Shown here: piece after piece, positions 6,780 to 56,048 of the stretch | Numbering within the stretch: position 1 is the stretch's first letter | Layout of the letters: every line of letters starts with the position of its first letter | NCBI GenBank assembly: GCA_963971535.1 | Contig: OZ020598.1 | Span: 103,038,924-103,102,923, forward strand | Reading direction: 5' to 3' | Length of the DNA stretch: 64,000 bases | Source of the DNA: Notolepis coatsorum | Taxonomy: Eukaryota > Chordata > Actinopteri > Aulopiformes > Paralepididae | Notes under the pieces: model-generated | Seen by the model: the letters and a program-made list of their open reading frames with translations, nothing else | Databases searched by the model: none | Told to the model about the DNA's origin: nothing | Program-made: the position numbers and the translations under genes

Positions 6780-8077
6780 GTATACATAGATGTCAATAAG
6801 TCAAGATAGACTGCGCTCACAAAATATAACACTGGGTGCTGAAATCCCGTGGAGTATAATAGAAAAAGAAAGCAATACGCTTGGACCAGCACTCACAGAT
6901 TTTGGTTATTTAATGGCAGCCTGAAACAAACATGTTTCGGAACATATGATATGGTGCAGCACCAAATGCATGTTCGTGAGGTGCTACAGCGTCTACTCAA
7001 GCATCAGCTATTTGTTAAGGCAGAAAAGTGTGTGTTTCACACTGACACTGTGTCCTTCCTGGGCTTTGTGTTGACGAAGGGTGATCTTCGCATGGATCCA
7101 GCCAATGTGAGTGCAGTCTTGGACTGGCCACGCCCTTCGTCGCTCAAGGAATTACACATTTTTTTGGGCTTTGCTAATTTTTACAGGCGTTTTATTCGCA
7201 ATTTCAGCGCCTTAGTCAATCCTCTGACAGCTCTCACTAAGGCCTCTCTACCTAGCTTTGAATGGTCGCCGCGGGCAGAGTCGGCCTTCTGCAACCTTAA
7301 ACGTCGGTTTACCTCCGCCCCTGTACTGATCCGCCACGATTCAGAGGCTCAGTCTATTGTGGATGTGGATGCCTCTGACATCGCGTGGGGGGGGGGGATC
7401 TCTCAGAGATGTTTAAAGGACGGGAAAGTGCATCCTTGCGCTTTTTTTCCGCGCCGGCTGTCTCCGGCCGAGCGCAACTACGATGTGGGTAATCGGGAGT
7501 TGTTGGCAATCAAGTTGGCACTGGAGGAATGGAAACATTGGTTAGAGGGGGCGGCACATCCTTTCATTGTTGGGACTGATCATAAGAACTTGGCTTACAT
7601 CCAAGGGGCTAAACACCTTAACGCTCACCAGGCCAGGTGGGCGTTATTCTTCACTCGATTTCGATTTTCCATCTCCTACCGGCCTGGTTCCAAGAACGTC
7701 AAACCTGACGCTCTTTCTCGTCAGTTTGATTCTCCGGACCGGGAGGAGAAGCCCCACCCTATTATTCCACATGCCCTTATTTTGGCACCTGTGTCATGGG
7801 GCATAGATAGGGTGGTAAGATCGGCTCTGGCACGGGAGCCTGGTCCCGGTGGTGGTCCTCCGGGGCGGATGTTTGTGCCCAAGGCTGTGCGCTCGCAACT
7901 GCTGCAGTGGGCACATACCTCTTCCCTCACCGAACACCCTGGGGCCGCCAGGACCCTGGAGTTTATCCGTAGGAGGTTCTGGTGGCCTACAGAGGTGGGG
8001 GATACGCGTTCCTTTGTGGCGGCCTGTCCGGTGTGCGCGCGTAGTAAGACCTCTCGCCGTGCACCGGCGGGTCTCTA
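6780..8077 (+). pseudogene. Gypsy RT palm, RNase H and truncated integrase
   Basis: The RT catalytic YxDD motif is broken after Tyr-Ile-Asp (6783-6791) by about 165 bp of unrelated sequence; the RT frame resumes near 6957. RT connection sequence follows ([12 protein letters not shown] at about 7165-7200), then RNase H with Asp (VDVDAS, about 7360), Glu ([10 protein letters not shown], about 7500) and Asp ([10 protein letters not shown], about 7572). The integrase HHCC zinc-binding domain is at about 7910-8046. Coding similarity stops near 8077, before the integrase core. No 3' LTR is in the window. Confidence 0.85.
6792..6957. other. Unclassified insert within the Gypsy RT
   Basis: About 165 bp that do not belong to the pol frame and lie exactly at the YxDD catalytic motif. 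It contains AACATGTTTCGGAACATATG-like sequence. No target duplication or terminal repeat was identified. A replacement or deletion-repair event would also fit. Confidence 0.5.
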
Positions 8078-8740
8078 TTTTCTATTTGATATCAGTATCA
8101 AAATAATTTCCAAATGAACCGTTAGCTGGCAAACCAGTTATCTGTCCACATACACCGCCCCCCCCCCCCCCCCCCCTTAGAACAATCCAAACAAAAAGTA
8201 TACTTTTCAATACATTGGTTGAGCATTGGTTGAGCATAAGTGAATATGTTATGAACAAATTAGAAGTTTGAACTAGTTAACGATTGTCTTCCAGGGATGT
8301 ATTGATACGGGTATCGGGCCATGCCAGGCTAAAACAGGGTAGCGGGATTGGGGGGGATTTCCCCAATGCTAAGATCTGACACCAAGAGAGCATGTGATTT
8401 GATTAAACTCCAAGCAGAATAATACCCTGTTTGGCCCATCTTGTACCCCAGCATGTGGGGGAACTTGGCATGGCCAAACACTTGTCTGACTTGTGAGTTA
8501 AAGGGATAGTTTGGATTTTTGGACTGTTAAGTGGTATGAAATACTTGCTAGTAGTATAGTTGATGCGATGCCATTAGCTTGACTCGCAGAGTACCATGGT
8601 CTGAGTTCTGGCCTGGTTCTGAGTGAACCGGGAAGCTTCAGACAGGCAGCAAATGAAATCATGATACAAAAAAGTGTTATTCCACCACACAATAACCTGC
8701 AGGCAAAAGTTGTAATCATCCACAGCAGAAAACATTTCCT
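8078..8740. other. Non-coding gap with hAT-like and MITE-like fragments
   Basis: Contains a poly(C) run (about 8156-8176), an AGGGATGTATTGATACGGG stretch (about 8294) resembling a hAT end, and TTAAAGGGATAGTTTGGA (8498-8515) resembling the end of a TTAA-targeting MITE. No partner end was found for either. No coding sequence is supported. Confidence 0.4.
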
Positions 8741-18783: not shown

Positions 18784-19077
18784 GTAAGTGTCCCCCGAAT
18801 GAAGAATGCCGCTGATTATTAAATTGAACACGCATTCTCGTACACCTGAATTTGCATATATAAACCGTGTCCACACAGAATCCATACCCAGATAGCAAAA
18901 GGTGTTAATTCAATGTTGATTTATGGTCAAAATGCTTGATTTTTGGTTAAAGGATAACTCCACTTTTTTTTTAAATTAGCTTATTTAACATCTTCCCTGG
19001 AGTTAGACAAGAAGATGCATACCTTTTTTGTCTCTGTGCGTGCATTTTAGCTTTGGGAATAGACGCTCCGTTAGCAT

Positions 19078-19441
19078 AGCTTAGCTTCATCACTGGAAGT
19101 GGGGGAGGACAGTAGCCTTACAGTGCCTTACAGTGTATTGCAAGGTCTGACATTGACCAAACTTGATATGCATGACCTTGGTGGGCTCTAGGTCAACTCC
19201 TGAAAAGGGGGTCAATGTCAGACTTTGCAATCAAAAGTTAGGGGGCTAATAACCCTTGCCATAATTTCAGTGCGCCCCTAACTTTTGATTGCAAGGTCTG
19301 ACATTGACCCCCTTTTCAGGAGTTGACCTAGAGCCCACCAAGGTCATGCATATCAAGTTTGGTCAATGTCAGACCTTGCAATACACTGTAAGGCACTGTA
19401 AGGCTACTGTCCTCCCCCACTTCCAGTGATGAAGCTAAGCT
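19078..19441. repeat. Foldback hairpin inside the left TIR flank
   Basis: About 155-170 bp at 19078-19236 are repeated in inverse orientation at 19269-19441, around a loop of about 32 bp that includes GCTAATAACCCTTGCC. Stem blocks include CTGACATTGAC and GTCAACTCCTGAAAAGGGGG. It has no counterpart on the right side of the large element. Confidence 0.85.
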
Positions 19442-19749
19442 ACAGTTACAGCATTGCAAATTGAGGTCCCTCCTACCGCCGTTTCAACGCCCTCTGCCGC
19501 CCGTTAACGGCTCTCGTCAAATGGTTTTATTAGCGTGGGTGCGGTTTCTGTTTTGTGCCGCCAGGAGGCGCAAAGTCAAGTTGGAATTATATCCATCCAG
19601 CGCCCGCCCCTACTCTGCCTCATGTTTACAAAATCAGCTGTTTAGCCATTAGTCATTAGCTATTAAACTAGCGTTAGAGTCGAGGAAAAGCAATTGATGC
19701 TTTGGATCTAATGAACGAGGGCATATTGGACTTTGTTACAGCTGTACTC

Positions 19750-22261
19750 AAATGTAACTGGCCCGTCGATTATTGTGACCAGGCTGTCCTGTGGATTTCA
19801 GCTGTCGCTGTACTGAATTTACTGGTAAGCTAACTTCGGTTTAACGTTAGTTTGTTTACTACAGTTATGTAGTCAACTAAGGTAACGTTACAGTAGCAAC
19901 TGCTCAAATAAAGCTGTATCCACATTGCTGTCAAGTTAACGTTATGGTCTCTCGAAAATTGAATGCGACCTCAAGGCTTTTCAACACTGGCCGCGTAATA
20001 TTAGTTAACGTTCATTTAGCAGGATGTAATGTGTAACATTTAATCAACGTGAAATGGCCCTGAATACATCATATAATGTGTTTCCCAGCTGCTTATATTG
20101 TAACGTGTATGCCCAAAAATATATATCACTGAATTGAAAATGGGGGACCCTGATGTAAACAAGACTAAAGTCTTTCTCTGGTCTGTGCAATGTGCATCCC
20201 CTTAACAATTGTGTGTATTGAGCTGTACTGTATTGTACTCATTCTGCAATCTGTTAATGACATTTACATATCTGTAGATACTATATCTATATCTGTACAT
20301 CCCTTACCTACTCTTACTAGTTACGCTGCTGGCCAGTATGACTTACTACCATATAGTGTCTTTATACCTGTATCACTGTACATATTAATACTATCTATAT
20401 CTGTACATATCTCTTACCTACTCTTACTAGTTACGCTGCTGGCCAGTATGACTTACTACCATAGTGTCTTCTTTATATCTATATCATTTTCCATACCCAG
20501 TTCTCTTCTCTAATGGCTATTTTCTTTTTATGTTGCAGATACCTGTCAAACTGGAGACTATTTCCACTCCATCGCCATCAGCTACAGAGTGGGGTTTTGA
20601 GCTACTACTTAAAGGCACTGGGTCCTATGTACAATATATAGTTTTACTGCTATGCCCCTATGCTATAATTGCTATTACTAACTATATTATGCATTAATCA
20701 CAACAAGTTATTTTCTTAAAGTGTCCTTTGTGTTTAAAGTGACCTATGGTGTGAGCGAGTGCACTGTGTGTTCATGTGTTTTTAAGTTACTGTAGACCCA
20801 CATTAAAGTCAAGATAACTACTATTTGGATGGTATCTGTGTCAATGATTCCATTCAACCAAAGTGAGTATCACTGTATTATACTACAACTCTATACATAC
20901 ATCTGAGTAGTGATTAGCACTATTACTCAGTAGTACTAATTTATATATTTTACACAGTTTAATCACCTGTTCATTGTATATCACTATTGCACTTTACTGT
21001 TACATTTGCACTCTCAAAATTAGATTAGATTCAAATGTACAGCACACCATATACTGCTATAGTGGAATATACTATTCATAAATCATATACCATTGTATAC
21101 CATCTTGTTGCGCGCTCCTGGCCACCGCAGTGTCATGATTAATTGAAAATGGGGGACCCTGATGTAAACAAGACGAAAGTCTTTCTCTGGTCTGCATCCC
21201 CTTAACAATTGTGTGTATTGAGCTGTACTGTATTGTACCCACTGTATTGAAACACAACATAGCAAGACGTAGCAGACTTTTTTTTATTACATTGGATCTC
21301 ACAGCTAGGCTACAGATGTAAACTCCTAGTTTTTATCTTTGGCAGCCTAGGGCATGTGCACAAGTTGGTTGTGAGGGGCCTTCAATAATTTTACTATATT
21401 TCCAGACAGTGGGACCCTGATGTAAACAAGAACAAGTTACAGGTTGAAAAAGCCCTCAGCTCGGAACTAGGCAAAATCTGCATATGGCTCGCCGACAACA
21501 AACTATCATTACACATGGGCAAAACAGAGTCCATTCTCTTCGGTTCAAATAACAAACTCAGCAAGACCGACGGCTTCTCGGTTACAGTGGGTGACAATAT
21601 TATCACAAGGAAAGATGAAATTACCTACCTGGGTTCCATCCTAGAGGCTAATCTTTCCTGTGACAAAATGGCATCCAATGTAATAAAAAAAGTCAACCAA
21701 CGAACGCGATTCTTGTACCGGATCTCCTCTCTGGTAAACAAGAATACCCTGAAGACTCTAGCAGGAGCACTCATTCAAGGGTACTACGACTATGCTTGCA
21801 CCTCATGGTACCAAAGCACCTTAAAGGCACTAAAAAACAAATTACAAACATCTCAAAACAAGCTAGTCAGACTACTACTTGACCTGACTCCTAGAACCCA
21901 CCTCACCCCTGCCCACTTTGACAACCTAGGATGGCTTAGAGTAGACGACAGAGTACAGCAACTTGCAATGGGCCTGGTCTACAAGATACACTACGCGACC
22001 AAGGTACCCATGTACATGTCAAAATACTTCCCAAAGGTCAGTGAATACCACGATCACAACACCAGAGGGAGCTCCACAAATCATGTAAAACCCAGATTCG
22101 GCTCAAACAAGGGACTAAACACGTTTCGCAATTATGCCACATCAATGTGGAACGCCCTACCTAAAGCTGTAAAGGAATGTGAATCGCTACCCACTTTCAA
22201 AAACACTCTCAAAAAACACCTACGTGAGACTGCAATTCGAAACTGGCCCCTACAAATGTCT
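19750..22261 (+). repeat. Left arm of the large palindrome
   Basis: Inverted copy of 22637-25156. It differs by scattered substitutions and small indels: a 2-bp indel near 21730, and a duplicated TGTGCA stretch difference around 20186 is not seen. It contains two family-T segments (20134-20260 and 21141-21243), a tandem duplication with TACCTACTCTTACTAGTTAC (about 20307-20460) and a LINE fragment (21430-22366). Confidence 0.9.
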
Positions 22262-22366
22262 TCCTACTCCTTTTCGAACATGTAGATTGAGTTGTGTTTT
22301 GCTTTTGTTATTGTTTGTTTGTATTCATTGCATGTTCGAAATAAAGATATCAAATCAAATCAAATA
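21430..22366 (+). pseudogene. LINE reverse transcriptase C-terminal fragment, left arm
   Basis: An open frame from 21515 to 22285 (256 codons) starts inside the RT palm/thumb (LGKICIWLADNKLSLHMGKT just upstream, then YLGSILEANLS, GYYDYACTSWY, HNTRGSS and MWNALPKAVKE). The 3' UTR ends AATAAAGATATC with a CAAAT tandem tail (22339-22366). The fragment has inserted into a family-T copy, which resumes at 22367 with AGACAGTACTGCTACATC. It is 5'-truncated and not autonomous. Confidence 0.8.
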
Positions 22367-22636
22367 GACAGTACTGCTACATCTATACATTTATGACATA
22401 TCAGATTTGCAAATACAGTACTGTTTGTGATACAAAAGTGTCCAGAAAAGGAGTGTATATACATTTGGCGTAGAAACTGTACATTGGAGGAGGTTGGTTG
22501 GGTGGGGTGGGGTTGGGTGGGTTGGGTGAGGGCTGTACATTGGAGGTGGGGGGGGGGGGGTTGGGTAGGGGACACACACACATTTTACACTGTGCATTGG
22601 AATATTGACAAAGCCTTACTTGGTCATTTACTGTAC
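22262..22636. repeat. Palindrome spacer with a G-rich tract
   Basis: Single-copy centre of the large palindrome. It holds the LINE 3' UTR end, family-T 5' sequence, and G-rich runs at about 22480-22565 (GGGTGGGGTGGGGTTGGG and a 13-G run) that could form a G-quadruplex. Confidence 0.8.
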
Positions 22637-25156
22637 AACTAGGTTAGGACATTTGTAGGGGCCAGTTTCGAATTGCAGTCTCACGTAGGTGTTTTTTGAG
22701 AGTGTTTTTGAAAGTGGGTAGCGATTCACATTCCTTTACAGCTTTAGGTAGGGCGTTCCACATTGATGTGGCATAATTGCGAAACGTGTTTAGTCCCTTG
22801 TTTGAGCCGAATCTGGGTTTTACATGATTTGTGGAGCTCCCTCTGGTGTTGTGATCGTGGTATTCACTGACCTTTGGGAAGTATTTTGACATGTACATGG
22901 GTACCTTGGTCGCGTAGTGTATCTTGTAGACCAGGCCCATTGCAAGTTGCTGTACTCTGTCGTCTACTCTAAGCCATCCTAGGTTGTCAAAGTGGGCAGG
23001 GGTGAGGTGGGTTCTAGGAGTCAGGTCAAGTAGTAGTCTGACTAGCTTGTTTTGAGATGTTTGTAATTTGTTTTTTAGTGCCTTTGAGGTGCTTTGGTAC
23101 CATGAGGTGCAAGCATAGTCGTAGTACCCTTGAATGAGTGCTCCTGCTAGAGTCTTCAGGGTATTCTTGTTTACCAGAGGAGATCCGGTACAAGAATCGC
23201 GTTTGTTGGTTGACTTTTTTTATTACAATGGATGCCATTTTGTCACAGGAAAGATTAGCCTCTAGGATGGAACCCAGGTAGGTAATTTCATCTTTCCTTG
23301 TGATAATATTGTCACCCACTGTAACCGAGAAGCCGTCGGTCTTGCTGAGTTTGTTATTTGAACCGAAGAGAATGGACTCTGTTTTGCCCATGTGTAATGA
23401 TAGTTTGTTGTCGGCGAGCCATATGCAGATTTTGCCTAGTTCCGAGCTGAGGGCTTTTTCAACCTGTAACTTGTTCTTGTTTACATCAGGGCCCCACTGT
23501 CTGGAAATATAGTAAAATTATTGAAGGCCCCTCACAACCAACTTGTGCACATGCCCTAGGCTGCCAAAGATAAAAACTAGGAGTTTACATCTGTAGCCTA
23601 GCTGTGAGATCCAATGTAATAAAAAAAAGTCTGCTACGTCTTGCTATGTTGTGTTTCAATACAGTGGGTACAATACAGTACAGCTCAATACACACAATTG
23701 TTAAGGGGATGCAGACCAGAGAAAGACTTTCGTCTTGTTTACATCAGGGTCCCCCATTTTCAATTAATCATGACACTGCGGTGGCCAGGAGCGCGCAACA
23801 AGATGGTATACAATGGTATATGATTTATGAATAGTATATTCCACTATAGCAGTATATGGTGTGCTGTACATTTGAATCTAATCTAATTTTGAGAGTGCAA
23901 ATGTAACAGTAAAGTGCAATAGTGATATACAATGAACAGGTGATTAAACTGTGTAAAATATATAAATTAGTACTACTGAGTAATAGTGCTAATCACTACT
24001 CAGATGTATGTATAGAGTTGTAGTATAATACAGTGATACTCACTTTGGTTGAATGGAATCATTGACACAGATACCATCCAAATAGTAGTTATCTTGACTT
24101 TAATGTGGGTCTACAGTAACTTAAAAACACATGAACACACAGTGCACTCGCTCACACCATAGGTCACTTTAAACACAAAGGACACTTTAAGAAAATAACT
24201 TGTTGTGATTAATGCATAATATAGTTAGTAATAGCAATTATAGCATAGGGGCATAGCAGTAAAACTATATATTGTACATAGGACCCAGTGCCTTTAAGTA
24301 GTAGCTCAAAACCCCACTCTGTAGCTGATGGCGATGGAGTGGAAATAGTCTCCAGTTTGACAGGTATCTGCAACATAAAAAGAAAATAGCCATTAGAGAA
24401 GAGAACTGGGTATGGAAAATGATATAGATATAAAGAAGACACTATGGTAGTAAGTCATACTGGCCAGCAGCGTAACTAGTAAGAGTAGGTAAGAGATATG
24501 TACAGATATAGATAGTATTAATATGTACAGTGATACAGGTATAAAGACACTATATGGTAGTAAGTCATACTGGCCAGCAGCGTAACTAGTAAGAGTAGGT
24601 AAGGGATGTACAGATATAGATATAGTATCTACAGATATGTAAATGTCATTAACAGATTGCAGAATGAGTACAATACAGTACAGCTCAATACACACAATTG
24701 TTAAGGGGATGCACATTGCACAGACCAGAGAAAGACTTTAGTCTTGTTTACATCAGGGTCCCCCATTTTCAATTCAGTGATATATATTTTTGGGCATACA
24801 CGTTACAATATAAGCAGCTGGGAAACACATTATATGATGTATTCAGGGCCATTTCACGTTGATTAAATGTTACACATTACATCCTGCTAAATGAACGTTA
24901 ACTAATATTACGCGGCCAGTGTTGAAAAGCCTTGAGGTCGCATTCAATTTTCGAGAGACCATAACGTTAACTTGACAGCAATGTGGATACAGCTTTATTT
25001 GAGCAGTTGCTACTGTAACGTTACCTTAGTTGACTACATAACTGTAGTAAACAAACTAACGTTAAACCGAAGTTAGCTTACCAGTAAATTCAGTACAGCG
25101 ACAGCTGAAATCCACAGGACAGCCTGGTCACAATAATCGACGGGCCAGTTACATTT
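22637..25156 (-). repeat. Right arm of the large palindrome
   Basis: Inverted copy of the left arm. The LINE frame is broken here: 22644-22940 and 23026-23391 on the minus strand encode the two ends but are separated by small indels, unlike the open 256-codon version on the left. The two arms have therefore diverged since duplication. Confidence 0.9.
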
Positions 25157-25562
25157 CCCCCAACCAGAGCCTAACTAGAGCCACATTCTGCGAATCAGAG
25201 GCAGAGTAGGGCGGGTCTTCGGTGCCAGCACGTATAGGTTGTCTCGTAAAGAATAATACTGCACTGTATCTGAGTATCTAGATGATTATCCATAAAAAAC
25301 GCACGTTAATCGAAAATACCACACCATTACTGTACCAATGACAGTCAAATAATCTACAGAAAAGCATTACATTGCAAAATAATATGTCCAAGACTAGTGT
25401 CGCATGCACACACACACACACACACAGATTGTAGAATAGCTCCCACTCTCCACCGTGTAACTCGACTCCCCCTACTGGTTGAACCAGGCAGAGCAGCTTA
25501 AAAAGACGTCATCTAGCGTCATCTAGCTTGCTACCGGCCTCGTTTTCCAGTCCCACATCTGT
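25157..25562. other. Right-side unique segment of the TTAA element
   Basis: Lies between the right arm and right TIR and has no match on the left, where about 670 bp of other sequence sit. It contains (CA)n at about 25407-25426 and short duplications (GTCATCTAGC twice near 25510). Confidence 0.7.
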
Positions 25563-25693
25563 ATGCTAACGGAGCGTCTATTCCCAAAGCTAAAATGCAC
25601 GCACAGAGACAAAAAAGGTATGCATCTTCTTGTCTAACTCCAGGGAAGATGTTAAATAAGCTAATTTAAAAAAAAAGTGGAGTTATCCTTTAA

Positions 25694-27174: not shown

Positions 27175-29280
27175 ATGTCATCTTATTCTCGGGCTAAAAG
27201 ACGTAGAGTCAACAAATTAGTGAGAGAGACAGAGCAGGCTATCCTCACTGATTATAAGTTAATTGTTGCTGCTAATTCAAGGACAAACCATCACTCTTTA
27301 GAGAACACAGATCCTGTCACAGCCTATACTGAGTGCCTGCTCGATTTACCAAAGACAGACTTGCCACTAGATTTAACAACTAGATCAGACTTGCCACTAG
27401 ATTTATCAACTTCAGACTTGCCACTAAACAGACCACTAACTATCAGTGATCAAAGTGAAAATATTGACTCACCAGGTGAGTCAAATGCACATTTTGAAAG
27501 TATAGCTGGGGATGACGAAATTGAACCTGAACATGTCTTTGACAGTGATGAGCATAATGAAGATTTCCTCATGACAAGTTTAAAATATTGGGCAACATCC
27601 TATTCAGTCTCTCTGGTTGCACTATCATCTTTGCTGTCCTTTTTGAAGATGTTTCACCCCACCCTTCCTAAAGATGGAAGAACATTGCTAGGAACACAAA
27701 AACATGTGCCTACCACTAAGATTGAAGGGGGAGAATACTATCATTTTGGTTTAGTCAAAGGGGTGCTTTCACGGTTGGCATGTTTGATTTTACCGGCAAC
27801 TCTGACAACTCTTAATTTACAGTTTAATATAGATGGTTTACCTTTATTCAAAAGTTCTAAACTTCAGTTTTGGCCCATACTTGGAAGTCTCAAATGTGAC
27901 TACACAAAGTCCCCATTTGTTGTTGGCATTTTTTGTGGTCTAAGCAAGCCAAATAGTGTTTTTGAGTACCTAGTGCAGTTTGTCAAAGATCTTCAGAATG
28001 TACTGTCTAATGGCATTATTTATAATGACAAGCAATTTGATGTACAGATTTCTTCTTTCATTTGTGATGCCCCGGCTAGAGCTTATATTAAGCAGACCAA
28101 GGCATTTAATGGCTATTCTGGTTGTGACAAGTGTTTTCAGGAGGGTGTATGGAGAAATAAAATGACATATCCTGAAACAAAAGTCAGACTTAGGACAGAC
28201 TCCAGTTTCTCAGACATGGTTGATGAGGCACATCACAATGGGACGAGCCCTTTAACAGGTTTAGTTAAGATGGTTTCTATGTTTCCAACTGATTACATGC
28301 ATCTCTGTTGTCTCGGAGTTACAAGGAAACTGCTTAATATATGGTTAAAGGGGAAGAATTTGGCAACAAGGGTCCCTTCCAAAACTGTACAAGCCATTTC
28401 AGGTAAACTGCTAAAGCTACGTCCCTACATGCCTTGTGAATTTAACCGTAAACCAAGGGAACTGTCAGAGTTAGATCGCTGGAAAGCTACTGAGTTGCGA
28501 TCCTTCATGTTGTATTGGGGTCCTGTTGTTTTGAAGGATTCCCTCCCCAGTGAGCTGTATGACAACTTCATGTTGTTTTCTGTTGGAATGTACTTGTTGC
28601 TGTCCCCTAGTATTTCTGAGGAAATGTTGGCCTTTGCGCACAAGTTGATGGTTTCTTTTGTTGAACACTTTGGGACAGTGTATGGAAGAGGTGAAATTGT
28701 GTACAATGTACACCAGCTTATTCATTTGGCTGAGGAATACAGGAAGTTTGGCACTCTAGATAATATCTCAGGATTCCCTTTTGAGAACTATCTTGGACAA
28801 ATTAAGCATCTTCTACGCAAGCCACATCAGCCTCTACAACAGGTAGTGAAAAGGTTGTCAGAAATTCCACATGTTGGATCCCCATGTCCCACAGATGATC
28901 CAATTTTGCGTAATATTCACACTGATGGGCCTGTCCCCCCACAGTTTACTTCTTCACAACAGTACAGGAAGGTCTCCACTCATCGGTTTACTTTGTCCAC
29001 AAAGAAACGAGACAATTGTATTGAGGTTGGAGATGGATTTGCATTAGTAGAGAATATTCTTAAATCAGAGGAAGAGGTATATATAATTTACAGAAAGTAC
29101 AGACACAAACAGCCATACTACATGTATCCCTGTGAATCATCATACATTGGTACATACAAGGTCAGTGGCTTGCAAGAAGATATAGGGATAGGTAAACTTC
29201 GCTATATCAAGCGCAAATGTCTTCTCTCTCCAGACGGAGATGGTGCCATTGCAATACCACTACTTCATTTAACAGCATAA
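27175..29280 (+). CDS. Transposase_21 (EnSpm/CACTA)-like protein, 701 aa, intact
   Basis: The frame is uninterrupted from the first ATG after a predicted acceptor (27058) to TAA. The N-terminal 150 residues are acidic and Ser/Thr-rich, with PLDLT (64-68) and PLDLS (74-78), the latter fitting the CtBP-binding consensus PxDLS. The core has candidate catalytic acids: Asp220 (NIDGLPLFKSS), Asp298 (ICDAPARAY), Asp373 (DYMHLCCLG) and Glu537 (FPFENYLGQ). A C-x2-C pair (GCDKC) follows Asp298. The segment around 520-550 (YNVHQLIHLAEE) resembles the DUF4218-type C-terminus of animal tnp2-like transposases. Family assignment is from memory of motifs. It may be a recently active element or a captured host gene; no terminal repeats for it were found. 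Confidence 0.8.
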   Translation: MSSYSRAKRRRVNKLVRETEQAILTDYKLIVAANSRTNHHSLENTDPVTAYTECLLDLPKTDLPLDLTTRSDLPLDLSTSDLPLNRPLTISDQSENIDSPGESNAHFESIAGDDEIEPEHVFDSDEHNEDFLMTSLKYWATSYSVSLVALSSLLSFLKMFHPTLPKDGRTLLGTQKHVPTTKIEGGEYYHFGLVKGVLSRLACLILPATLTTLNLQFNIDGLPLFKSSKLQFWPILGSLKCDYTKSPFVVGIFCGLSKPNSVFEYLVQFVKDLQNVLSNGIIYNDKQFDVQISSFICDAPARAYIKQTKAFNGYSGCDKCFQEGVWRNKMTYPETKVRLRTDSSFSDMVDEAHHNGTSPLTGLVKMVSMFPTDYMHLCCLGVTRKLLNIWLKGKNLATRVPSKTVQAISGKLLKLRPYMPCEFNRKPRELSELDRWKATELRSFMLYWGPVVLKDSLPSELYDNFMLFSVGMYLLLSPSISEEMLAFAHKLMVSFVEHFGTVYGRGEIVYNVHQLIHLAEEYRKFGTLDNISGFPFENYLGQIKHLLRKPHQPLQQVVKRLSEIPHVGSPCPTDDPILRNIHTDGPVPPQFTSSQQYRKVSTHRFTLSTKKRDNCIEVGDGFALVENILKSEEEVYIIYRKYRHKQPYYMYPCESSYIGTYKVSGLQEDIGIGKLRYIKRKCLLSPDGDGAIAIPLLHLTA

Positions 29281-29438: not shown

Positions 29439-30985
29439 AGGAAAACTCCAACATTTTGTGAAATTAGCTTATTTAACATCTTCCCTGGAGTTGGACAAGA
29501 AGATGCATACCTTTTTCGTCTCTCTGCATGCTTTGGGCTTAGGGAACGCCTGGACCGTTAGCCTAGCTTAACTTCATCACTGGAAGTGGGGCAGACATCT
29601 AGCCTAGTTCACTACAGTCAGGAAATATACTCCAAATACAACTCCCAAACGTTCCTGTAAACATGTTGTGACCTGTGTGTTTACCCCGTCTCCCAGTCAC
29701 ACAAGTCACACGAGTCTCCCAGTCACATGAGTCTCGTGTGACTGGGAGACTTGTGTGACTTGGAGACTTGTGTGACTTGTGTGACTTGGAGACTTGTGTG
29801 ACTTGTGTGACTTGGACTTGTGTGACTTGTGTGACTTGTGTGACTTGGAGACTTGTGTGACTTGGAGACTTGTGTGACTTGTGTGACTTGGAGACTTGTG
29901 TGACTTGGAGACTTGTGTGACTCATGTGACTTGGAGACTTGTGTGACTGGGAGACTTGTGTGACTTGGAGACTTGTGTGACTCGTGTGACTTGGAGACTT
30001 GGACTTGTGTGACTTGGAGACTTGTGTGACTTGGAGACTTGTGTGACTCGTGTGACTTGGAGACTTGGGCTTGTGTGACTTGGAGACTTGTGTGACTTGG
30101 AGACTTGTGAGACTCGTGTGACTCGTGTGACTTGGACTTGTGTGACTTGTGTGACTTGGAGACTTGTGTGACTCGTGTGACTTGGAGACTTGGACTTGTG
30201 TGACTTGTGTGACTTGGAGACTTGTGTGACTTGGAGACTTGTGTGACTCGTGTGACTTGGAGACTTGGACCTGTGTGACTTGTGTGACTTGGAGACTTGT
30301 GTGACTTGGAGACTTGTGTGACTCGTGTGACTCGTGTGACTTGGACTTGTGTGACTTGTGTGACTTGGAGACTTGTGTGACTCGTGTGACTTGGAGACTT
30401 GGACTTGTGTGACTTGTGTGACTTGGAGACTTGTGTGACTTGGAGACTTGTGTGACTCGTGTGACTTGGAGACTTGGACTTGTGTGACTTGTGTGACTTG
30501 GAGACTTGTGTGACTTGGAGACTTGTGTGACTCATGTGACTTGGAGACTTGTGTGACTGGGAGACTTGTGTGACTTGGAGACTTGTGTGACTCGTGTGAC
30601 TTGGAGACTTGGGCTTGTGTGACTTGTGTGACTTGTGTGACTTGGAGACTTGTGTGACTTGTGTGACTGGGAGACTTGTGTGACTTGTGTGACTGGGAGA
30701 CTTGTGTGACTTGTGTGACTGGGAGACGTGGTAAATACACAGGTCACAACATGTTTACGGGAACGTTTGGGAGTTGTATTTTGATTGTATTTGGAGTATA
30801 TTTCCTGACTGTAGTGAACTAGGTTAGATGTCTGCCCCACTTCCAGTGATGAAGTTAAGCTAGGCTAACTGTCCAGGCGTTCCCTAAGCCCAATGCATGC
30901 AGAGAGACGAAAAAGGTATGTATCTTCTTATAACTCCAGGGAAGATGTCAAATAAGCTAATTTCACAAAATGTTGGAGTTTTCCT
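29439..30985. mobile_element. TTAA-flanked long-TIR element with captured minisatellite
   Basis: TTAA flanks (29435-29438 and 30986-30989). TIRs begin AGGAAAACTCCAAC and run about 250 bp. They share GAAATTAGCTTATTT, CTTCCCTGGAGTT and GACAAGAAGATGCATACC with the large element at 18951-25689, so both belong to one family. The middle is a tandem array instead of coding sequence. Confidence 0.88.
29700..30728. repeat. Compound minisatellite of GTGTGACTT and GGAGACTT words
   Basis: About 1 kb built from two words, GTGTGACTT(C/G) and GGAGACTT, in variable order, with higher-order periods of about 60-120 bp. It fills the loop of the surrounding TIR element. The long open frames on the complement (KSHKSPSHTS-type repeats) are artefacts. 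Confidence 0.95.
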
Positions 30986-40169: not shown

Positions 40170-43105
<2,936 letters not shown>

Positions 43106-43114
43106 GTAATATAA

Positions 43115-43300
43115 TGGATCTATTTTGTCTGGTACCGTGGTTTAGCGGTTTATGGGCATACCTCTCAAGCTGCCGACCCGGGTTTGAATCCCACCCATTT
43201 TGATATATATATTTTTTTGTATTATTTATAAAATTAAATTGCCCGCAACGATGTGCATAATATAATAGTAATAATATATAATAAGAATCCAACCAATCCA
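43115..43300 (+). repeat. tRNA-derived SINE-like repeat
   Basis: A box-like GTGGTTTAGCGGTTTATGG and B box-like GGGTTTGAATCCC, followed by an AT-rich tail. Its downstream part (GCCCGCAACGATGTGCAT) recurs inverted at the window end (63930-64000). Confidence 0.6.
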
Positions 43301-43372
43301 TCCAAAAATCGAATACAATAAACAGTGTAAAGCAAATAATTTATCATATCAATTATCATTTATCAATTTTAG

Positions 43373-43422
43373 GTTGTATCAAACCAGACGGCTGTGATCG
43401 CAACCACTGTCAAGAGTTCAGT
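43373..43422 (+). other. Possible tenth exon of the multi-exon gene
   Basis: Preceded by CAATTTTAG and open in the phase-1 frame (GCIKPDGCDRNHCQEF). The donor (A|GTTTTATG) is weak. Kept separate because support is thin. Confidence 0.25.
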
Positions 43423-44159
43423 TTTATGTTATTATCTACATAATATCTGATGGTGAAACGCTGTGCGTGGGGTACCTGTAATTCGGACACCAGGTACCCC
43501 GAAAGACTGGATGGAGGAGTATATTTTTGTATCTTTTCCGAAGCCCAAAAGAAAACTCGACGGTGGATTGTGTTGTTGTAAACAGCTGAACGTGAAGACC
43601 ATTACCAAGGACATTTATGTTTGCTCAAAGGTAAGGTCAATTCATAAAGACATAATATTTGACGGCATGTAATATAAACGTAGACCAAACTATTAATTTG
43701 CTAACGTTTGACTTTAACTGCGAACTAGCTATCGTGTATCCAGCCCAGTTAGCCAACGTTAGCAGCTAGCTAACGTTAGCTGCCAACATAAATATATCTA
43801 CTCGTCCTCGCTAGTTACAGTAGCTGGTGTTTTTACTGTAGCTACTGTAACTTTGGCTTCTCTCTTTTCACCCCAAAGCACTTCAGGCTCTCGTGTCTGC
43901 TCTCACCCAAAAAAGGTAACAATATCGCACATATTTCTGCATCATAACGTTAAGTTCTAGCTCTGTTATCAATACATCCAACTGTGTTATCAGTATGTTC
44001 TAACATGGAATGTGTGCAACTTTACAATCATGTCATTGATGAACTGAATATCTCTGTGAACTCTCTCAATATATATATCTCAGGAAAGATTTGCCTCTAG
44101 GATGGAACCCAGGTAGGTAATTTCATCTTTCCTTGTGACAATATTGTCACCCACTGTTT

Positions 44160-44472
44160 TGATTGATTGAATTGATTGAAAACTTTATTAACAGATTGCA
44201 GAATGGGTACAATACAGTACAGCTCAATACACACAATTGTTAAGGGGATGCAGACCAGAGAAAGACTTTCGTCTTGTTTACATCAGGGTCCCCCATTTTC
44301 AATTCATCAGGACATATATGACATACATGACATACAGATAGTCAGTACTGCTACATCTATACATTTATGACATACCAGATTTGCAAATACAGTACTGTTT
44401 GTGATACAGAAGGAGTCAGGAAAAGGGAGTATATACATTTGACGTAGAAACTGTACATTGGAGGAGGTTGGG
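44160..44472 (-). mobile_element. Family-T copy, long
   Basis: One of the fullest copies: tandem ATCA tail, AATAAAGTTTTCAATC, the two diagnostic blocks, then about 190 bp up to a CCCCCACCCAACCTCC-type 5' edge. In intron 2 of the THAP gene. Confidence 0.85.
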
Positions 44473-44540
44473 TGGGGGGGAAGCCGTTGGCCTTGCTGAG
44501 TTTGTTATTTGATCCAAGAGAGAGAGAGAGAACTCGCATG

Positions 44541-45854: not shown

Positions 45855-45922
45855 GCATGAGAATTATGCTTGCTGAGAGGTTTAAAATGAAGGATCTGGG
45901 AAAATTAAAACATTTTCTAGGG
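45855..45922 (+). pseudogene. Copia-type reverse transcriptase fragment
   Basis: Translates to MLAERFKMKDLGKLKHFLGI, typical of the Ty1/Copia RT region. A family-T insertion cuts it at 45922. Sequence after that insertion (46236-46300) may be more of the same element but is not identifiable. Confidence 0.5.
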
Positions 45923-46237
45923 ATTGATTGATTGGAAACTTTATTAACAGATTGCAGAATGGGTACAATACAGTACAGCTCAATACACACAATTGTTAAG
46001 GGGATGCAGACCAGAGAAAGACTTTCGTCTTGTTTACATCAGGGTTCCCCATTTTCAATTCATCAGGACATATATGACATACATGACATACAGATAGTCA
46101 GTACTGCTACATCTATACATTTATGACATACCAGATTTGCAAATACAGTACTGTTTGTGATACAGAAGGAGTCAGGAAAAGGGAGTATATACATTTGACG
46201 TAGAAACTGTACATTGGAGGAGGTTGGGTGGGGGTCA
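45922..46237 (-). mobile_element. Family-T copy, long
   Basis: Near-duplicate of the copy at 44160-44472. It starts with a GATTGATTGATTGG tail and ends at GGAGGTTGGGTGGGGGT, interrupting the Copia fragment. Confidence 0.85.
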
Positions 46238-48091: not shown

Positions 48092-48466
48092 TGTTGTGGC
48101 TGATGGTTGTTTAACACAGCAGGAGACGATATTTCCAATTGTAACAAGTAGGTAATTTATTTAGAAAAAGAAGTTCTTAACAGCAAAAGCTATGGATCGA
48201 GCAGAGGATCACCACAGCTTGAACAAAAAACACTAACTCCCAATCCCTCTGCTTGTCCCCTAAATCCCCTCTCAGTCCTGCCCCCCCATGACAGATATGA
48301 TGACGTATCATATCATGTCAGATCTGACATGACGTACATTAAGATGATACGTAGATTTAACATCGGAGAGAGATAAGAACATTAAGAACATGAAGAGAGA
48401 TAAACAAGATATGATGTACACACACGATATGATGTAAAACATTAAGAACATTGAAGAGAGAGTGAG

Positions 48467-48505
<39 letters not shown>

Positions 48506-48938
48506 TGTGTGTCTGTGTGTGTGTGCGTCTGCGTACAGACGTATGTGTATTGTATGTGTGTATTGTGTCACAGGGAATGTGTGTGTGTGTGTGTGTGTCG
48601 GTGTGTATGTCTGTGTGTGTGTGTGTGTGTGTCTGTGTGACTGTGTGTGTCTGTGTGTCTGTGTGTGTGTGCTGTGTCTGTGTGTGTGTGCTGTGTATGT
48701 GTGTGTCCGTGTGTCTGTGTGTGTGTGCTGTGTCTGTGTGTGTGTGCTGTGTATGTATGAAAGAGAGAAAAGAACAAGATATGAAAGCGATACGATGTAC
48801 GAGATTACAAGCACACAACGTGCCGTACTGAAATGTCCATCTGTCCAAGTTGTTTTAAGAACGTCAGCCAGACCGTCTTTCAGCACTGCTAGTTGACCTA
48901 TATTAAACTAGTCCACCCCATACACATTTTCCACAACA
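48092..48938 (-). mobile_element. 3' LTR of an endogenous retrovirus (minus strand)
   Basis: 847 bp, TGTTGTGG...CCACAACA. It is almost identical to 54193-55039; visible differences are a 2-bp indel (near 48231), a C/T change (near 48350) and (GT)n lengths. TSD ATAG at 48088-48091 and 55040-55043. On the minus strand AATAAA lies at about 48150-48160. Confidence 0.92.
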
Positions 48939-49950
48939 TTCCCCCATTTGGGGCTATCCCTAGTCCCACCCAAATCATATAACCAAGAAAATGTGAACGT
49001 CTAACTAAACGAGAAACCATATTTATATAATAAAAGTTTAAATGGCTGATCTAAACAAGAAACCTAGCCATATAATAAATTTTAAATGTCTAACTAAACA
49101 AGAAACCTTACTTCATTCACTGGACCCCTAACGGACCAACAAAGGCTGACTACCGTTCTCACAATAAACACAAAACCGCTCAAAACAAGAGTAATAATAA
49201 AACATCAAAAAAAAATACCCCAATTTATAATCCTAACCTGACAGACAAATCCCCCCAACCTCCACCGCTTACCAAATGAGCCACAGTTCCGGCCGGAAAC
49301 CGCGACTCTCATCAGGGAAAGGAGAAGTTGACCGTCAGAACTAAACATAGAACATCCCTCCCAAAAAAAATGACATTGTCTCTTCCATAACATTGAGTCC
49401 CAGTGTCCATCGCTCAGCCCCCCTTCCATGCCCACGCCATAGTCTCCTCACCGTATTGCCAAAAGTCACATTTTGCCAATACAGCAACCACCACGCCACA
49501 CCTCCAGTCCCCGTAGAAGCGTGTCCCCATACCTGGACGGGAGGCGCTGGTCCCGACCTCACCACGTGTCCCCCCATCTTCGACGGGAGGTGCCCATCTT
49601 GCCCACTGCGTTAGCCCCCCCCTTTGTCCCTCCAGTCCCCAGAACCGATCCCCAGACCACTTCTTCTCAATGCTTCCTCAGGCTCAGAACCGACACTCTG
49701 CCGATGCCCCTTCCCATTCCGGTTTGACCAGGACCACAAGTAAAATAAACAAAAAATTATAAAAAAATAAAAAACAATGCAATGATTTTCAATGGTTGCA
49801 ATCTCTATGCCGAAGGATCATTAGAAAATCAGACTAAAATTCCAAGTTAAAGGAATAAACCAACAAAACTGCACTCAGACCATCCCCCGTCACTCTTAAA
49901 GGAAAGAACCAACAAAAAGAAAATGTCCCTACCTCACCATACCCCTAATC
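48939..49950 (-). other. Provirus region between env and 3' LTR
   Basis: On the minus strand, GCCCCAAATGGGGGAA lies directly before the LTR and is the polypurine tract. The rest is A-rich on the plus strand and shows no accessory gene. Confidence 0.6.
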
Positions 49951-51987
49951 CTATATCCCCTCGTCTCCCTCTAAGGCAGCATAAAGCTGAGGGCATGGCC
50001 CGATTTGTGGCTCAATCTCTTTCTGTCCCACCATCAGCATTTGGCTCGTTACGTGTGAAGTTACCAGCCTACCCAAGAGAGGCATACCACAACAGAAAAG
50101 GAGAACCAATATCAACCCTGCCACCCCAATGGATATCCCCGTCTGCATCACTATGCTTCCCCACTGTCCCAATCTTTCCAACACCCCACTCCCCCACCAT
50201 TCTTCATTCCGGCCAGAATTCCCCCTCAACTCCTCCCTCAAATCCTTCAGCTTAGCCATGGCCTCGGAGAACTTTCCCCCTGGCCCCACATTCGTCGGAA
50301 TGAATGTGCAGCAGTACTGTCCAAACATGGAACAGACTCCACCCTTCTCCGCCATTAACCAGTTCAGAGCCTGTCTATTCTGCCACGCCACCGTACTGGT
50401 CGCGTGCATCTGGTCCCCCATTGCATCCAACGCCTCCTCGGTGTAGTTGAGATACCGCTGCTGATTGTAAAACAAATAGTTGATCCACCCGGTGTTCTTA
50501 TTGACCGATATCCATGGCAGAATAGACTCAAACCCTGCCGCAATCTCATTCTTAGCCATGAACTCGGCTGGAATGCCCCTTGGCTGTCCTATGCTGTCCA
50601 GATACACCCTTGGGTCTGCCTTGTAGCTACGCTTCGTTCGAGAGATAGGAGACTCAGAAGGTCCTTCCGTCACTGATAATGGTAGGACCACCATTGGCAT
50701 GATCGCCTGAACCCGGGCACATCTACCTGACCAATCTAAAGGAAGTGTATTCCTCAACCTCCTACCGCCGCAGAGCCAGTATTGGTCCGCCAGTGCCATA
50801 TCCTGGACATGAAAAGGGCAAGCTACAGGCCGTGGGTTGGTATCCACTCCCTTTAACACGACCCCGTGTCCACACTTTCCTTCTTTCGTGCAGTTAGTCG
50901 TGATGCTCCAAATAGTAGTGCACCGCCCCTCTGCCACCTCCCCTACATCCCGGGTCCCCTCCTTTTGCAAGCACTCGAAATCCTTGGTCAGCCATAGTTT
51001 GACACCTCTGGGTATTGGCAACCCCGTCGCTACCCCCTGCACACGTACATCCAATTTCCTACAACGTTCCCGCATAGTGACATCCTTGAAATCCGTGACG
51101 TTTCCTGCCGCCTTAAAACGACTAGAGCCGAGAAACCCCAAACACTCTGCCTCGCACCAAGGGCGACTATTATGGGGCCCCTCCCATGCCTCTGCGTCCC
51201 TGTCACACTGAGCCCAACTGAACTTCGTGCCCTTCACCAGCAGCCTATCCGGACGTGCCTTGGAGCAGACATAACAATCCTCTATCTGATTCTGCGCGCT
51301 CGTGTACTGGACCCACTTAAACCACTCATTCCCTAAAGCCGCCCTATACATCGGGTCAGCCTCCGGGTCTTCCTCGTCATAGTCATAGTCGCCCCCATCT
51401 TGTTCCCCGGAAGGAAGCAAACCCCTCAACCTGGCCCAGAGTGAGCCCACTGAGTCCCTCAACGTTCCGGCTGTCCTCTGGAACATATCCTGTCCCCCCA
51501 CCTCTTCCGACTCAGTGTCCTTGACCTCCCTTTTTCCCCTCACCCCTGTCCCCTGTGATTGGTTCGGGACAGGCTCAACCCTCCTATCTACCCCCACAAC
51601 CCGATCCTCGTTAGTATAATGGTAAGTATCCCCGCCTGTAACGGGGGAATGGTCAAAATCAAAAACATGCCCTTGCGGTCCTACGGGAAACACCCCTTTT
51701 GGTTGTAGTCTTATCTTCTCCCCCCCTTCCTCGATGGAGGGAAGAGGGGGCGCCTGATTCTGAGCCTGGTCATGAAAGCCTGCTGGTACTTGAGCCTGAG
51801 CGGGACCCCGTGGGACTCCTACCCACTCAAACCCGTCATCCTCAAGGACGTGTCGACCGTGACGGTTCTCAATGACGTCGTTGTGCCCGGCCGACCGTCC
51901 GCACACTGCTGCCAACATCTGCGGGAGCATCAGCAGGCACTGCACCTTCCAGTTGCCGTCTCGGACCCTCCATGTCGGGTTCTGCAT
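49951..51987 (-). CDS. env: Endogenous retroviral envelope glycoprotein, open frame
   Basis: A 678-codon uninterrupted frame. In order: a hydrophobic segment near residues 15-30 that may be a signal peptide; a surface subunit with many cysteines and NxS/T sites (NVT, NCT); a furin-type RTKR site at 450-453; a transmembrane subunit with a CX6CC motif at 552-560, as in gammaretrovirus-type Env; a membrane span at about 612-640; and a cytoplasmic tail of about 37 residues. The start overlaps the integrase frame by 119 bp, as in many simple retroviruses. Described as an old genomic copy; expression and function are unknown. Confidence 0.82.
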   Translation of the reverse strand: MQNPTWRVRDGNWKVQCLLMLPQMLAAVCGRSAGHNDVIENRHGRHVLEDDGFEWVGVPRGPAQAQVPAGFHDQAQNQAPPLPSIEEGGEKIRLQPKGVFPVGPQGHVFDFDHSPVTGGDTYHYTNEDRVVGVDRRVEPVPNQSQGTGVRGKREVKDTESEEVGGQDMFQRTAGTLRDSVGSLWARLRGLLPSGEQDGGDYDYDEEDPEADPMYRAALGNEWFKWVQYTSAQNQIEDCYVCSKARPDRLLVKGTKFSWAQCDRDAEAWEGPHNSRPWCEAECLGFLGSSRFKAAGNVTDFKDVTMRERCRKLDVRVQGVATGLPIPRGVKLWLTKDFECLQKEGTRDVGEVAEGRCTTIWSITTNCTKEGKCGHGVVLKGVDTNPRPVACPFHVQDMALADQYWLCGGRRLRNTLPLDWSGRCARVQAIMPMVVLPLSVTEGPSESPISRTKRSYKADPRVYLDSIGQPRGIPAEFMAKNEIAAGFESILPWISVNKNTGWINYLFYNQQRYLNYTEEALDAMGDQMHATSTVAWQNRQALNWLMAEKGGVCSMFGQYCCTFIPTNVGPGGKFSEAMAKLKDLREELRGNSGRNEEWWGSGVLERLGQWGSIVMQTGISIGVAGLILVLLFCCGMPLLGRLVTSHVTSQMLMVGQKEIEPQIGPCPQLYAALEGDEGI

Positions 51988-52375
51988 AACTGCGATCGAT
52001 TGTATCCCCCAAGAGATCGCCGCTGGCCTTTATGCAGTGATTGAAGTGGAACCAGGTCGCTGATCCTTTGACTTGGACTGCCGTTCCAGTCGATCGGATC
52101 ACCTCGTACGGGCCCTCTCTCCGGGGTGATGACCACTTTCTCTTGTGGACCTTTACGAAGACCAAGTCCCCAGGGATCAGTCTCGGTTTGGTGGCTTCCT
52201 TCTCCGCCTCCCTCACCCCCTTTCTCTCCTTTCTCTGCTCCTGTCGAAACACAGCTTCATGTATTTTAGTCACTTGCTGAAGATATTTTTTCAGATCTTG
52301 ATCAAAAATATCTAATGCCGGGCCCCTAGCCAGGTGTCTAAATGGCGGTGCTGGCATGCTGCGGCCTGTAAGCAT
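51869..52375 (-). pseudogene. pol: Retroviral integrase C-terminal fragment
   Basis: 168 codons including the C-terminal GPY/F-type domain (PGDLVFVKVHKRKW then GPY at residues 88-90). The catalytic core, RT, RNase H and protease are absent upstream, where tandem repeats begin at about 52411. It is the only recognisable remnant of pol. Confidence 0.75.
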
Positions 52376-52410
52376 TTCATGCGGTGTTAGCTGTGTTTGG
52401 CGGTTTACGC

Positions 52411-52625
52411 TGCTCTACCCCAGGACACAGTTAACCTAGATCTACTACTACTCTACCCCAGGACACAGTTAACCTAGATCTACCACTACTCTACCCCAGG
52501 ACACAGTTAACCTAGATCTACTACTACTCTACCCCAGGACTACCACTACTCTACCCCAGGACACAGTTAACCTAGATCTACTACTACTCTACCCCAGGAC
52601 ACAGTTAACCTAGATCTACCACTAC
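52411..52625. repeat. 38-bp tandem repeat at the truncated pol edge
   Basis: Five to six copies of CTCTACCCCAGGACACAGTT plus AACCTAGATCTACTACTA; one copy lacks 16 bp. Confidence 0.9.
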
Positions 52626-52627
52626 AA

Positions 52628-52661
52628 CGCTACTACAACTCGGTGTGTGTGTATGTGTGTG

Positions 52662-52704
<43 letters not shown>

Positions 52705-53162
52705 CGGTGTGTGTGTCTGTGTGTGTGTGTGTATGTGTGTATGTCGGTGTGTGTGTGTGTGACTGTGTGTGTGTGTGTGTGTGTGTGACTGTGTGTGTGT
52801 GCGTACTGTGTGTGTGTGCGTCACAACCCGCTGTCTACCGGGACACAGGAATGTGTGTGTGCGTGTGTGTGTCGGTGTGTGTGTGTCGGTGTGTGTGTGT
52901 GTTTGTGTGTGATTGTGTGTGTGTGTGTGTGTGACTGTGTGTGTCTTTGTGTGACTGTGTGTGTGTGTGTCTGTGTGTGTGTCGGTGTGTGTGTGTGTTT
53001 GTGTGTGATTGTGTGTGTGTGTGTGTGTGACTGTGTGTGTCTTTGTGTGACTGTGTGTGTGTGTGTGTGTGACTGTGTGTGTGTGCGTCCCAACCCGCTG
53101 TCTACCGGGACACAGGAATGTGTGTGTGTGTGTGTGTGTCGGTATGTGTGTGTGTGTGTGTG

Positions 53163-53206
<44 letters not shown>

Positions 53207-53230
53207 TGTGTGTGGTGACTGTGTGTGTGT

Positions 53231-53267
<37 letters not shown>

Positions 53268-53401
53268 TGTGTGTGTGTGTGTGTGACTGTGTGTGTGTGC
53301 GTGTGTGTGACTGTGTGTGTGTGTGTGTGTGGTTGTGTGTGTGTGTGTGTGTGTGTGACTGTGTGTGTGTGTGTGTGTGTGTATGTGTGTGTGACTGACT
53401 G

Positions 53402-53436
<35 letters not shown>

Positions 53437-53440
53437 CTAC
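52628..53440. repeat. (GT)n tract with a repeated non-GT island
   Basis: About 800 bp of TG repeats. An island around CCGCTGTCTACCGGGACAC occurs twice (about 52825-52850 and 53092-53118), so the region expanded by segment duplication. Confidence 0.95.
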
Positions 53441-53527
53441 CACCAGGGGTCAGCAAACCCAAGAGAGAAATAGATGTGATGAGTCTGTATGCTACACCTT
53501 GGCCCACCAACAGGGGTCAGCAAACCC

Positions 53528-53608
<81 letters not shown>

Positions 53609-53674
53609 CTCTTGGCTCAACGCCCAGACCTGCTGGCTCTACGCCCAGAATGAGTTATCTTCTACAGATGTACG

Positions 53675-53726
<52 letters not shown>

Positions 53727-53792
53727 CTCTTGGCTCAACGCCCAGACCTGCTGGCTCTACGCCCAGAATGAGTTATCTTCTACAGATGTACG

Positions 53793-53834
<42 letters not shown>

Positions 53835-53835
53835 T
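53441..53835. repeat. (AG)n tracts and a tandem segment of about 116 bp
   Basis: AG runs at 53530-53601, 53684-53719 and 53800-53832 alternate with a block starting GCTATCTCTCTTGGCTCAAC, present twice. A shorter GGGGTCAGCAAACCCA word also recurs (53447 and 53514). Confidence 0.93.
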
Positions 53836-54569: not shown

Positions 54570-54606
<37 letters not shown>

Positions 54607-55039: not shown

Positions 55040-56036
<997 letters not shown>

Positions 56037-56048
56037 AGAAAAACAAAC

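Follow-up and report, generated by a model that had tools for sequence, protein, structure and literature searches.

A TA-flanked transposon with a subterminal palindrome, nested in a TTAA-flanked foldback element of Notolepis coatsorum

The window analysed here is a 64,000-nucleotide stretch of the genome of the fish Notolepis coatsorum (assembly GCA_963971535.1, contig OZ020598.1; C43:103038924-103102923), and the genome searched with it comprises 3.42 Gb in 4,787 contigs. Between positions 18947 and 25693 the window contains a TTAA-flanked miniature inverted-repeat transposable element (MITE) and, inside it, a longer element flanked by TA and dominated by a large palindrome. A preliminary description, made from the letters of the window, had taken the whole for one TTAA-flanked transposon carrying the palindrome. 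The locus instead consists of two unrelated nested elements, a MITE interrupted by a separate TA-flanked transposon, and the palindrome belongs to the inner element alone. The parts of the locus are the following.

18947..18950, left TTAA target site of the outer MITE, which has TTAA on both sides
18951..19078, + strand, left terminal inverted repeat (TIR) of the outer MITE, 128 bp, identical to the right copy at 128/128 positions
19077..19442, + strand, foldback core of the outer MITE, with two 168-bp arms and a 30-bp loop, aligned without gaps to an intact 618-bp copy
19441..19442, left TA target-site duplication (TSD) of the inner element, a single TA in the intact MITE
19443..25561, + strand, inner element, 6,119 bp, TA-flanked, with a subterminal palindrome; termini and TA flanks as in 12 further delimited copies
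19443..19749, + strand, left unique end of the inner element, 307 bp, beginning CAGTTACAG
19711..20697, + strand, possible two-exon small open reading frame (ORF), starting in the left unique end and continuing into the arm
19750..22260, + strand, left palindrome arm, 2,511 bp
21428..22260, + strand, truncated long interspersed nuclear element (LINE) fragment in the arm, the 3' part of a reverse-transcriptase-encoding ORF; 5' edge approximate
22261..22647, spacer, made of a LINE tail and part of a dispersed repeat resembling a short interspersed nuclear element (SINE)
22648..25156, - strand, right palindrome arm, 2,509 bp, 99.76% identical to the left arm
25157..25561, + strand, right unique end of the inner element, 405 bp, ending CACATCTG
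25562..25563, right TA TSD of the inner element, two bases that the numbering of the preliminary description counts as the start of the right TIR
25562..25689, - strand, right 128-bp TIR of the outer MITE, matching the left TIR at 128/128 positions
25690..25693, right TTAA target site of the outer MITE

The key to the nested structure is the foldback at 19077-19442, which is absent from the preliminary description and whose 168-bp arms are 99% complementary. It is part of a 618-bp foldback unit that is common in the genome. The 128-bp TIR is found at 100% identity at 40/40 scored places (927 first-look candidates), and several of these matches face each other in pairs at a distance of about 0.5 kb. 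Of eight places examined (ten loci), six hold a full-length unit of 618-619 bp with TTAA on both sides; at the place of L001 and L002 only the right side has TTAA, and the unit at L008 is incomplete. The unit at L002 is one imperfect palindrome, 96% self-complementary along its length. When the inner element is taken out, window positions 18947-19442 plus 25564-25693 align to the L002 MITE without gaps and with two mismatches inside the element, a further difference being L002's own altered left TTAA. The intact MITE copy carries a single TA at the empty site, and the insertion reads GCTAAGC-TA-(CAGTTACAG...CACATCTG)-TA-TGCTAACGG. Intact MITE copies thus represent the empty site, so that 19443-25561 is an insertion into the MITE with duplication of TA.

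The inner element is one member of a repeated family. A query of 505 bases, made of 100 bases of the right arm and the right unique end, matches at 40/40 scored places including the window (807 first-look candidates), each match starting at base 1, reaching base 499 or beyond and having 96-100% identity. Other copies of the arm junction, on whose existence the preliminary description had staked its proposal, are abundant: an exact 30-mer over the junction of right arm and end occurs 152 times in the genome (70 + 82), against 0 for a reversed-pattern control. Sister copies from 20 of the 39 remaining places were examined, eighteen that followed in rank and two from lower down, and four were extended. 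Both ends could be delimited in 12 of the 20, nine directly and L028, L042 and L030 after extension, which with the window gives 13 delimited copies of 4,482 to 10,764 bp. All 13 have TA followed by CAGTTACAGCATTGCAAATTGAGG at the start, and 12/13 end in CCTCGTTTTCCAGTCCCACATCTG directly before TA; L036 is two bases short at the 3' end, with the TA still there.

The register of the arms is shared as well. The left arm begins at element position 308 in 13/13 delimited copies. The right arm stops 412 bp short of the 3' end (405 bp short in the window), and 10/13 copies share this register; the right boundary is shifted by 3-6 bp in L036, L037 and L042 through small indels or, in L036, the shortened end. 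An exact 30-mer over the left junction is present in 10/21 loci (the window and L024-L043, extension loci left out). An inverted block of at least 1 kb lies on or near the end-anchored diagonal in 9/13 copies (L025, L027, L028, L030, L037, L038, L039, L042 and the window), the longest measuring 2,899 bp in L039. Shorter blocks occur in L032 (803 bp), L036 (695 bp) and L031 (467 bp), and none in L035, where only the first ~47 bp of the left arm remain. Read inward from the left end, fuller copies contain the unique end, the two-exon ORF region, SINE-like pieces, the truncated LINE and a reversed stretch with the LINE tail. Fuller members thus have unlike ends of ~0.31 and ~0.41 kb, long inverted arms that hold the truncated LINE, SINE-like pieces and a small ORF of spliced appearance, and a variable centre. 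The two ends are different sequences, one of each per delimited copy, which speaks against the earlier suggestion of a fusion of two head-to-head copies. The unique segments noticed between each TIR and arm are real; they are the terminal segments of the inner transposon, which keep their distances from the ends, small indels apart, in 13/13 delimited copies. The other earlier suggestion, a foldback element with captured LINE sequence, fits the inner element. The family is young, TA-targeting and of foldback type, its palindrome is built of captured retroelement pieces, and it is apparently non-autonomous.

Inverted repeats of the length and identity seen in the window are far beyond chance. 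Alignment of the two arms gives 2,505 identical columns of 2,511, which supplies the percent identity that the preliminary description had left to be determined; the arms as outlined there are borne out, except that the inner end of the right arm, placed at 22637, lies about 11 bp too far in and is 22648. The arms differ by five events, four substitutions and one 2-bp indel, all within left-arm positions 21414-21822 (P ~0.003 for such clustering under uniform placement). The earlier observation of a LINE frame open on the left and broken on the right holds, the break being due to the 2-bp indel. The LINE, whose open frame is listed at 21515-22285, has close relatives in fish, the best 92% identical over 96% (Dissostichus), and a relative with a 711-residue reverse-transcriptase ORF (RVT_1) lies at L044 293-2428; the 256-residue piece in the arm has no Pfam match at E values up to 0.01. 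In the small ORF, exon 1 runs to 19824 (GT donor) and exon 2 starts at 20539 after an AG acceptor. The predicted 90-residue spliced peptide contains hydrophobic stretches, and a homologue search gave none.

The SINE-like pieces of the arms recur across the window. A dispersed SINE-like repeat of ~300 bp with a AATCAATC-type tail lies at 44158-44480, 45914-46235, 63109-63365 and 63669-63843, and pieces resembling it occur in the palindrome arms and in the spacer.

The window copy is itself rearranged. Its left LINE continues directly into the LINE tail. When LINE ends are located by an exact 24-mer in the 13 copies (n=20), 19 read into the family junction and the twentieth is the left LINE of the window; its join to the tail is therefore private, and the window copy is an internal-deletion derivative. 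The spacer at 22261-22647 is part of the right arm in fuller copies and was joined to the left arm in the window by this private deletion, which removed the centre and the distal left arm. The apparent LINE continuity in the left arm is accidental, and an arrangement in which left arm and spacer are native neighbours is ruled out by the privacy of that join.

Two simpler explanations of the palindrome can be set against these results. Enclosure of the whole by TTAA and by identical 128-bp TIRs would be expected if a single TTAA-flanked transposon carried it, and the preliminary description was right that both are there, its 127-bp TIRs being 1 bp longer than given. This explanation has practically no chance of being correct: the genome has intact 618-bp copies of this TTAA element that lack the insert, the exact TA-duplicated empty site refutes it, and the 12 other delimited copies of the inner element have TA flanks within flank strings unlike each other and unlike the MITE. 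An assembly or read-through artefact would produce an arm identity such as 99.76%, yet the same arm boundaries recur at 13 loci with different flanks, the junction of arm and end recurs at 152, the window arms differ by a frame-changing indel, and private substitutions hit one arm only in 33 cases versus both arms in 1. The likelihood of an artefact is accordingly negligible, in agreement with the preliminary description, which had argued against one.

The centres between the arms vary between copies and form at least two sets. For markers A1-A2 the order is forward in L025, L028, L030 and L036; L038 has them reversed, L042 shows a mixture, and A2 alone is present, forward, in L026 and L039. 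In the second set (B), markers B1-B2 run forward in L031, L033 and L040, while L037 and L041 have the reversed order. Orientation was read from the right end, the left end being unseen for L033, L040, L041 and L026. The two orientations look like inversion isomers, and we infer recombination between the arms as their cause.

Several centres contain coding sequence. A long accessory-type ORF, with a coiled coil and a C-terminal domain, is present in the centres of L031, L037, L040 and L041, and L033 carries the same DNA. A window ORF at 61455-62543 resembles this set-B ORF in outline by eye; neither it (E up to 0.01) nor the accessory ORF of L040 has a Pfam match. L027 contains a helix-turn-helix-like piece of 70 residues without a Pfam match above the cut-off. 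At L040 30-1584, in or next to the centre, lies a damaged P-element-like transposase (PF21787, PF21788, PF21789) with RNase H and GTP-binding-domain pieces. It is internally deleted, with ~150 bp of coding sequence fewer than a related transposase locus, L048, and belongs to a gene family that is common elsewhere in the genome (3,074 first-look candidates). Its interpretation as an intronless retrocopy is ruled out by this coding loss. No DDE/D transposase of the Tc1/mariner type was recognised in the ORFs looked at. Elsewhere in the window, 42791-43640 starts TA-CAGATG and has, ~100 bp further on, the motif GCCGCCAGGAGGCGCAAAGTC, which also occurs in the left end of the inner element; a THAP-like exon is seen by eye near 43451, and the segment is possibly the end of a distantly related transposon.

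The history of the arms was followed by mapping those of the 13 copies on the left arm of L038, L035 being without left coverage. Private substitutions number 33 in one arm only and 1 in both arms of a copy, so the arms now change independently, and ongoing homogenisation of the arms within single copies is ruled out. A different pattern appears at the 14 sites where a minor allele is common to several copies: the arms of one copy agree in 108/122 cells, and the discordant fraction is 0.115, versus 0.325 with right arms permuted. In a stretch of 601 bp (armB), within-copy differences in eight copies are 0, 1, 1, 1, 3, 0, 0 and 0, against a between-copy median of 6. Seven copies have none in a stretch of 263 bp (armA) and one has 3; the between-copy median there is 1. 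We read this as the outer arm having probably been homogenised or re-copied in the founders of subfamilies, after which each arm decayed independently, although common ancestry by itself may account for the pattern.

Two results count against a role of homogenisation, and the concordance test is itself modest, since 8/500 permutations reach the observed value and shared subfamily ancestry could explain it. In the LINE segment, within-copy differences are 4 in the window, 3 in L039, 5 in L038, 1 in L027 and 34 in L030, where the left LINE is only 96% identical, with a between-copy median of 4. Finally, a left-arm deletion is common to L025, L036 and L030 and is not in their right arms.

The same data bear on whether the palindrome is inherited at all. 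Instead of descending from one founder, it might be generated separately in every copy, for instance when hairpin-primed repair follows excision. The usual presence of the same subfamily variant in both arms of a copy and the low within-copy differences of the 601-bp stretch are what such formation would leave, but the arm boundaries are equal in 13/13 delimited copies when small indels are allowed, private changes are almost never in both arms, and in the LINE segment the arms of one copy differ as much as the arms of different copies. Formation per copy is thus very unlikely, whereas formation anew once or twice, in subfamily founders, could have occurred. A further proposal concerns the source of mobility. 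The family might be autonomous, with longer members encoding a transposase in the centre (either P-element-like, or a coiled-coil/BEN-like accessory ORF acting with an unseen transposase) and with the palindrome as part of the design. The accessory-type ORFs of the set-B centres and the TNP-like RNase H and GTP-binding-domain pieces of L040 argue for this. On the other hand, no intact transposase was recognised in the 13 delimited copies, albeit without a systematic profile search, L040 is not delimitable, and its transposase is ~150 bp short and has a relative elsewhere without similarity to the element over 3.2 kb. Autonomy is therefore unlikely, if somewhat less so than formation of the palindrome in each copy.

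The explanation favoured here combines a nested MITE, a TA-targeting family and a palindrome of founder origin, and we give it a probability of about 0.85. The 618-bp TTAA foldback MITE came first, and an unrelated DNA transposon later inserted into it with duplication of TA. The arms would have arisen once, in a founder, when sequence beside one end was copied in reverse beside the other, and template switching during excision-gap repair is the likely route. The palindrome may then have spread as cargo of TA-specific cut-and-paste movement, with a transposase acting in trans. Recombination between the arms may occasionally have inverted the centre and may have homogenised the arms within subfamilies. 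After insertion, the arms of each copy would mutate independently.

Several observations weigh against this explanation. Delimitation failed for eight of the 20 sister copies: L024 and L043 hold runs of N, and the left end was not reached in L026, L029, L033, L034, L041 and L040, in the last even after extension. The two ends have weak similarity, with 15/24 terminal positions alike (shuffle P ~0.0002). The centre inversions could have come by routes other than recombination between the arms. No transposase is tied to the ends of the inner element in the copies surveyed as above, and the 3.2 kb at and upstream of the L048 transposase locus shares no sequence with it.

The inner element can be compared with several known systems. 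In the broad sense it is a foldback element, since long inverted repeats make up most of this mobile unit. Foldback-type transposons, among them FB and Tetris, likewise have long inverted repeats, a variable or missing centre and non-autonomous amplification. The arms of FB are terminal and rich in tandem repeats, whereas each arm of the inner element lies 0.3-0.4 kb in from its end and is pieced together from ORF, SINE-like and LINE segments. Tc1/mariner and CMC/Mirage elements target TA, and Tc1-type elements also begin CAGT. The inner element has the same TA as its TSD; unlike these groups, it has no such transposase tied to it, and its terminal inverted repeats are weak.

By structural analogy, the closest published counterpart is the growth of TIRs in Galileo, a P-superfamily element of Drosophila, foldback elements being the other closest kind. 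The TIRs of Galileo recruit internal and foreign transposable-element sequences, and gap repair with template switching is invoked there for structural variation (PMC4168063). Long inverted arms that take up internal and foreign sequence, strong length variation, many deletion derivatives and a link to inversions are common to both. Galileo differs in its TSD of 7-8 bp, where the inner element has only TA common to both flanks; in inverted repeats that are terminal, where the arms of the inner element start 307 and ~405-412 bp inside unlike ends; and in its P-superfamily membership, where no P-type transposase is tied to the ends of the inner element (PMC4168063). ISL2EU has an A|AT|T target and an AT TSD (PMC4482050); the inner element shares with it a TSD of two bases, but that TSD is TA within GC-TA-TG, and no ISL2EU transposase is tied to the element. 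Mu killer of maize is also an inverted duplication of transposon sequence with a potential long hairpin RNA (PMC3440606); it is known as one silencing element, whereas the inverted duplication described here belongs to a dispersed family. Searches of open-licence papers, judged by title and opening of the abstract among the hits listed, turned up no vertebrate family built in this way.

The value of the family lies in its replication. Large palindromes are generally regarded as unstable. This young family has more than 100 copies of the arm junction, many of them with a kilobase palindrome at a datable insertion, and such natural replicates could be used to measure how palindromes move, persist, shrink, flip and become homogenised. 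The family also illustrates how a transposon can grow inverted arms in its interior, at a distance from the ends. It is about as likely as not that it represents a class of vertebrate transposons whose transposase acts on two short ends of unlike sequence, whose bulk is a subterminal palindrome with ~3-kb arms of retroelement fragments that has survived cut-and-paste over a hundred times, and whose centre is flipped by arm recombination to give two inversion isomers. If copies are transcribed through, hairpin RNA kilobases long with LINE sequence is possible.

The outer MITE has relatives in and beyond the window. L009 and L010, two copies about 9.5 Mb apart on contig C1, have the same 10-base flanks on both sides and may sit in duplicated or repeated sequence. 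Window positions 29439-30985 contain a TTAA-flanked MITE of the same TTAA type, 82-84% similar to the young one and filled with ~1 kb of tandem repeat (ORFs of repeated SHKSPSHTSLQVTQ); it is older than the outer MITE. Adjoining the MITEs, 27175-29280 holds an intact single-exon ORF of 701 residues, without a Pfam match at E values up to 0.01, that looks like a transposon protein. Kolobok and T2-MITE elements have the TTAA target and AG termini in common with the outer MITE, and their ends are described with a terminal RR and an AGGRR motif (PMC6004289). The young MITE family starts AGGAT, which breaks the last R of the motif, and the older window copy starts AGGAA, which fits.

Retroelement remains lie elsewhere in the window. 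Positions 48300-56200 contain remains of an endogenous retrovirus, with an env ORF at 49951-51987 (PF00429) and, by eye, an ORF like the end of an integrase at 51869-52375. Near-identical ORFs at 48308-48886 and 54460-54987 suggest repeated retroviral ends. A pol fragment of a long terminal repeat retrotransposon, with reverse transcriptase RNase H and integrase H2C2 regions, lies at 6849-8117.

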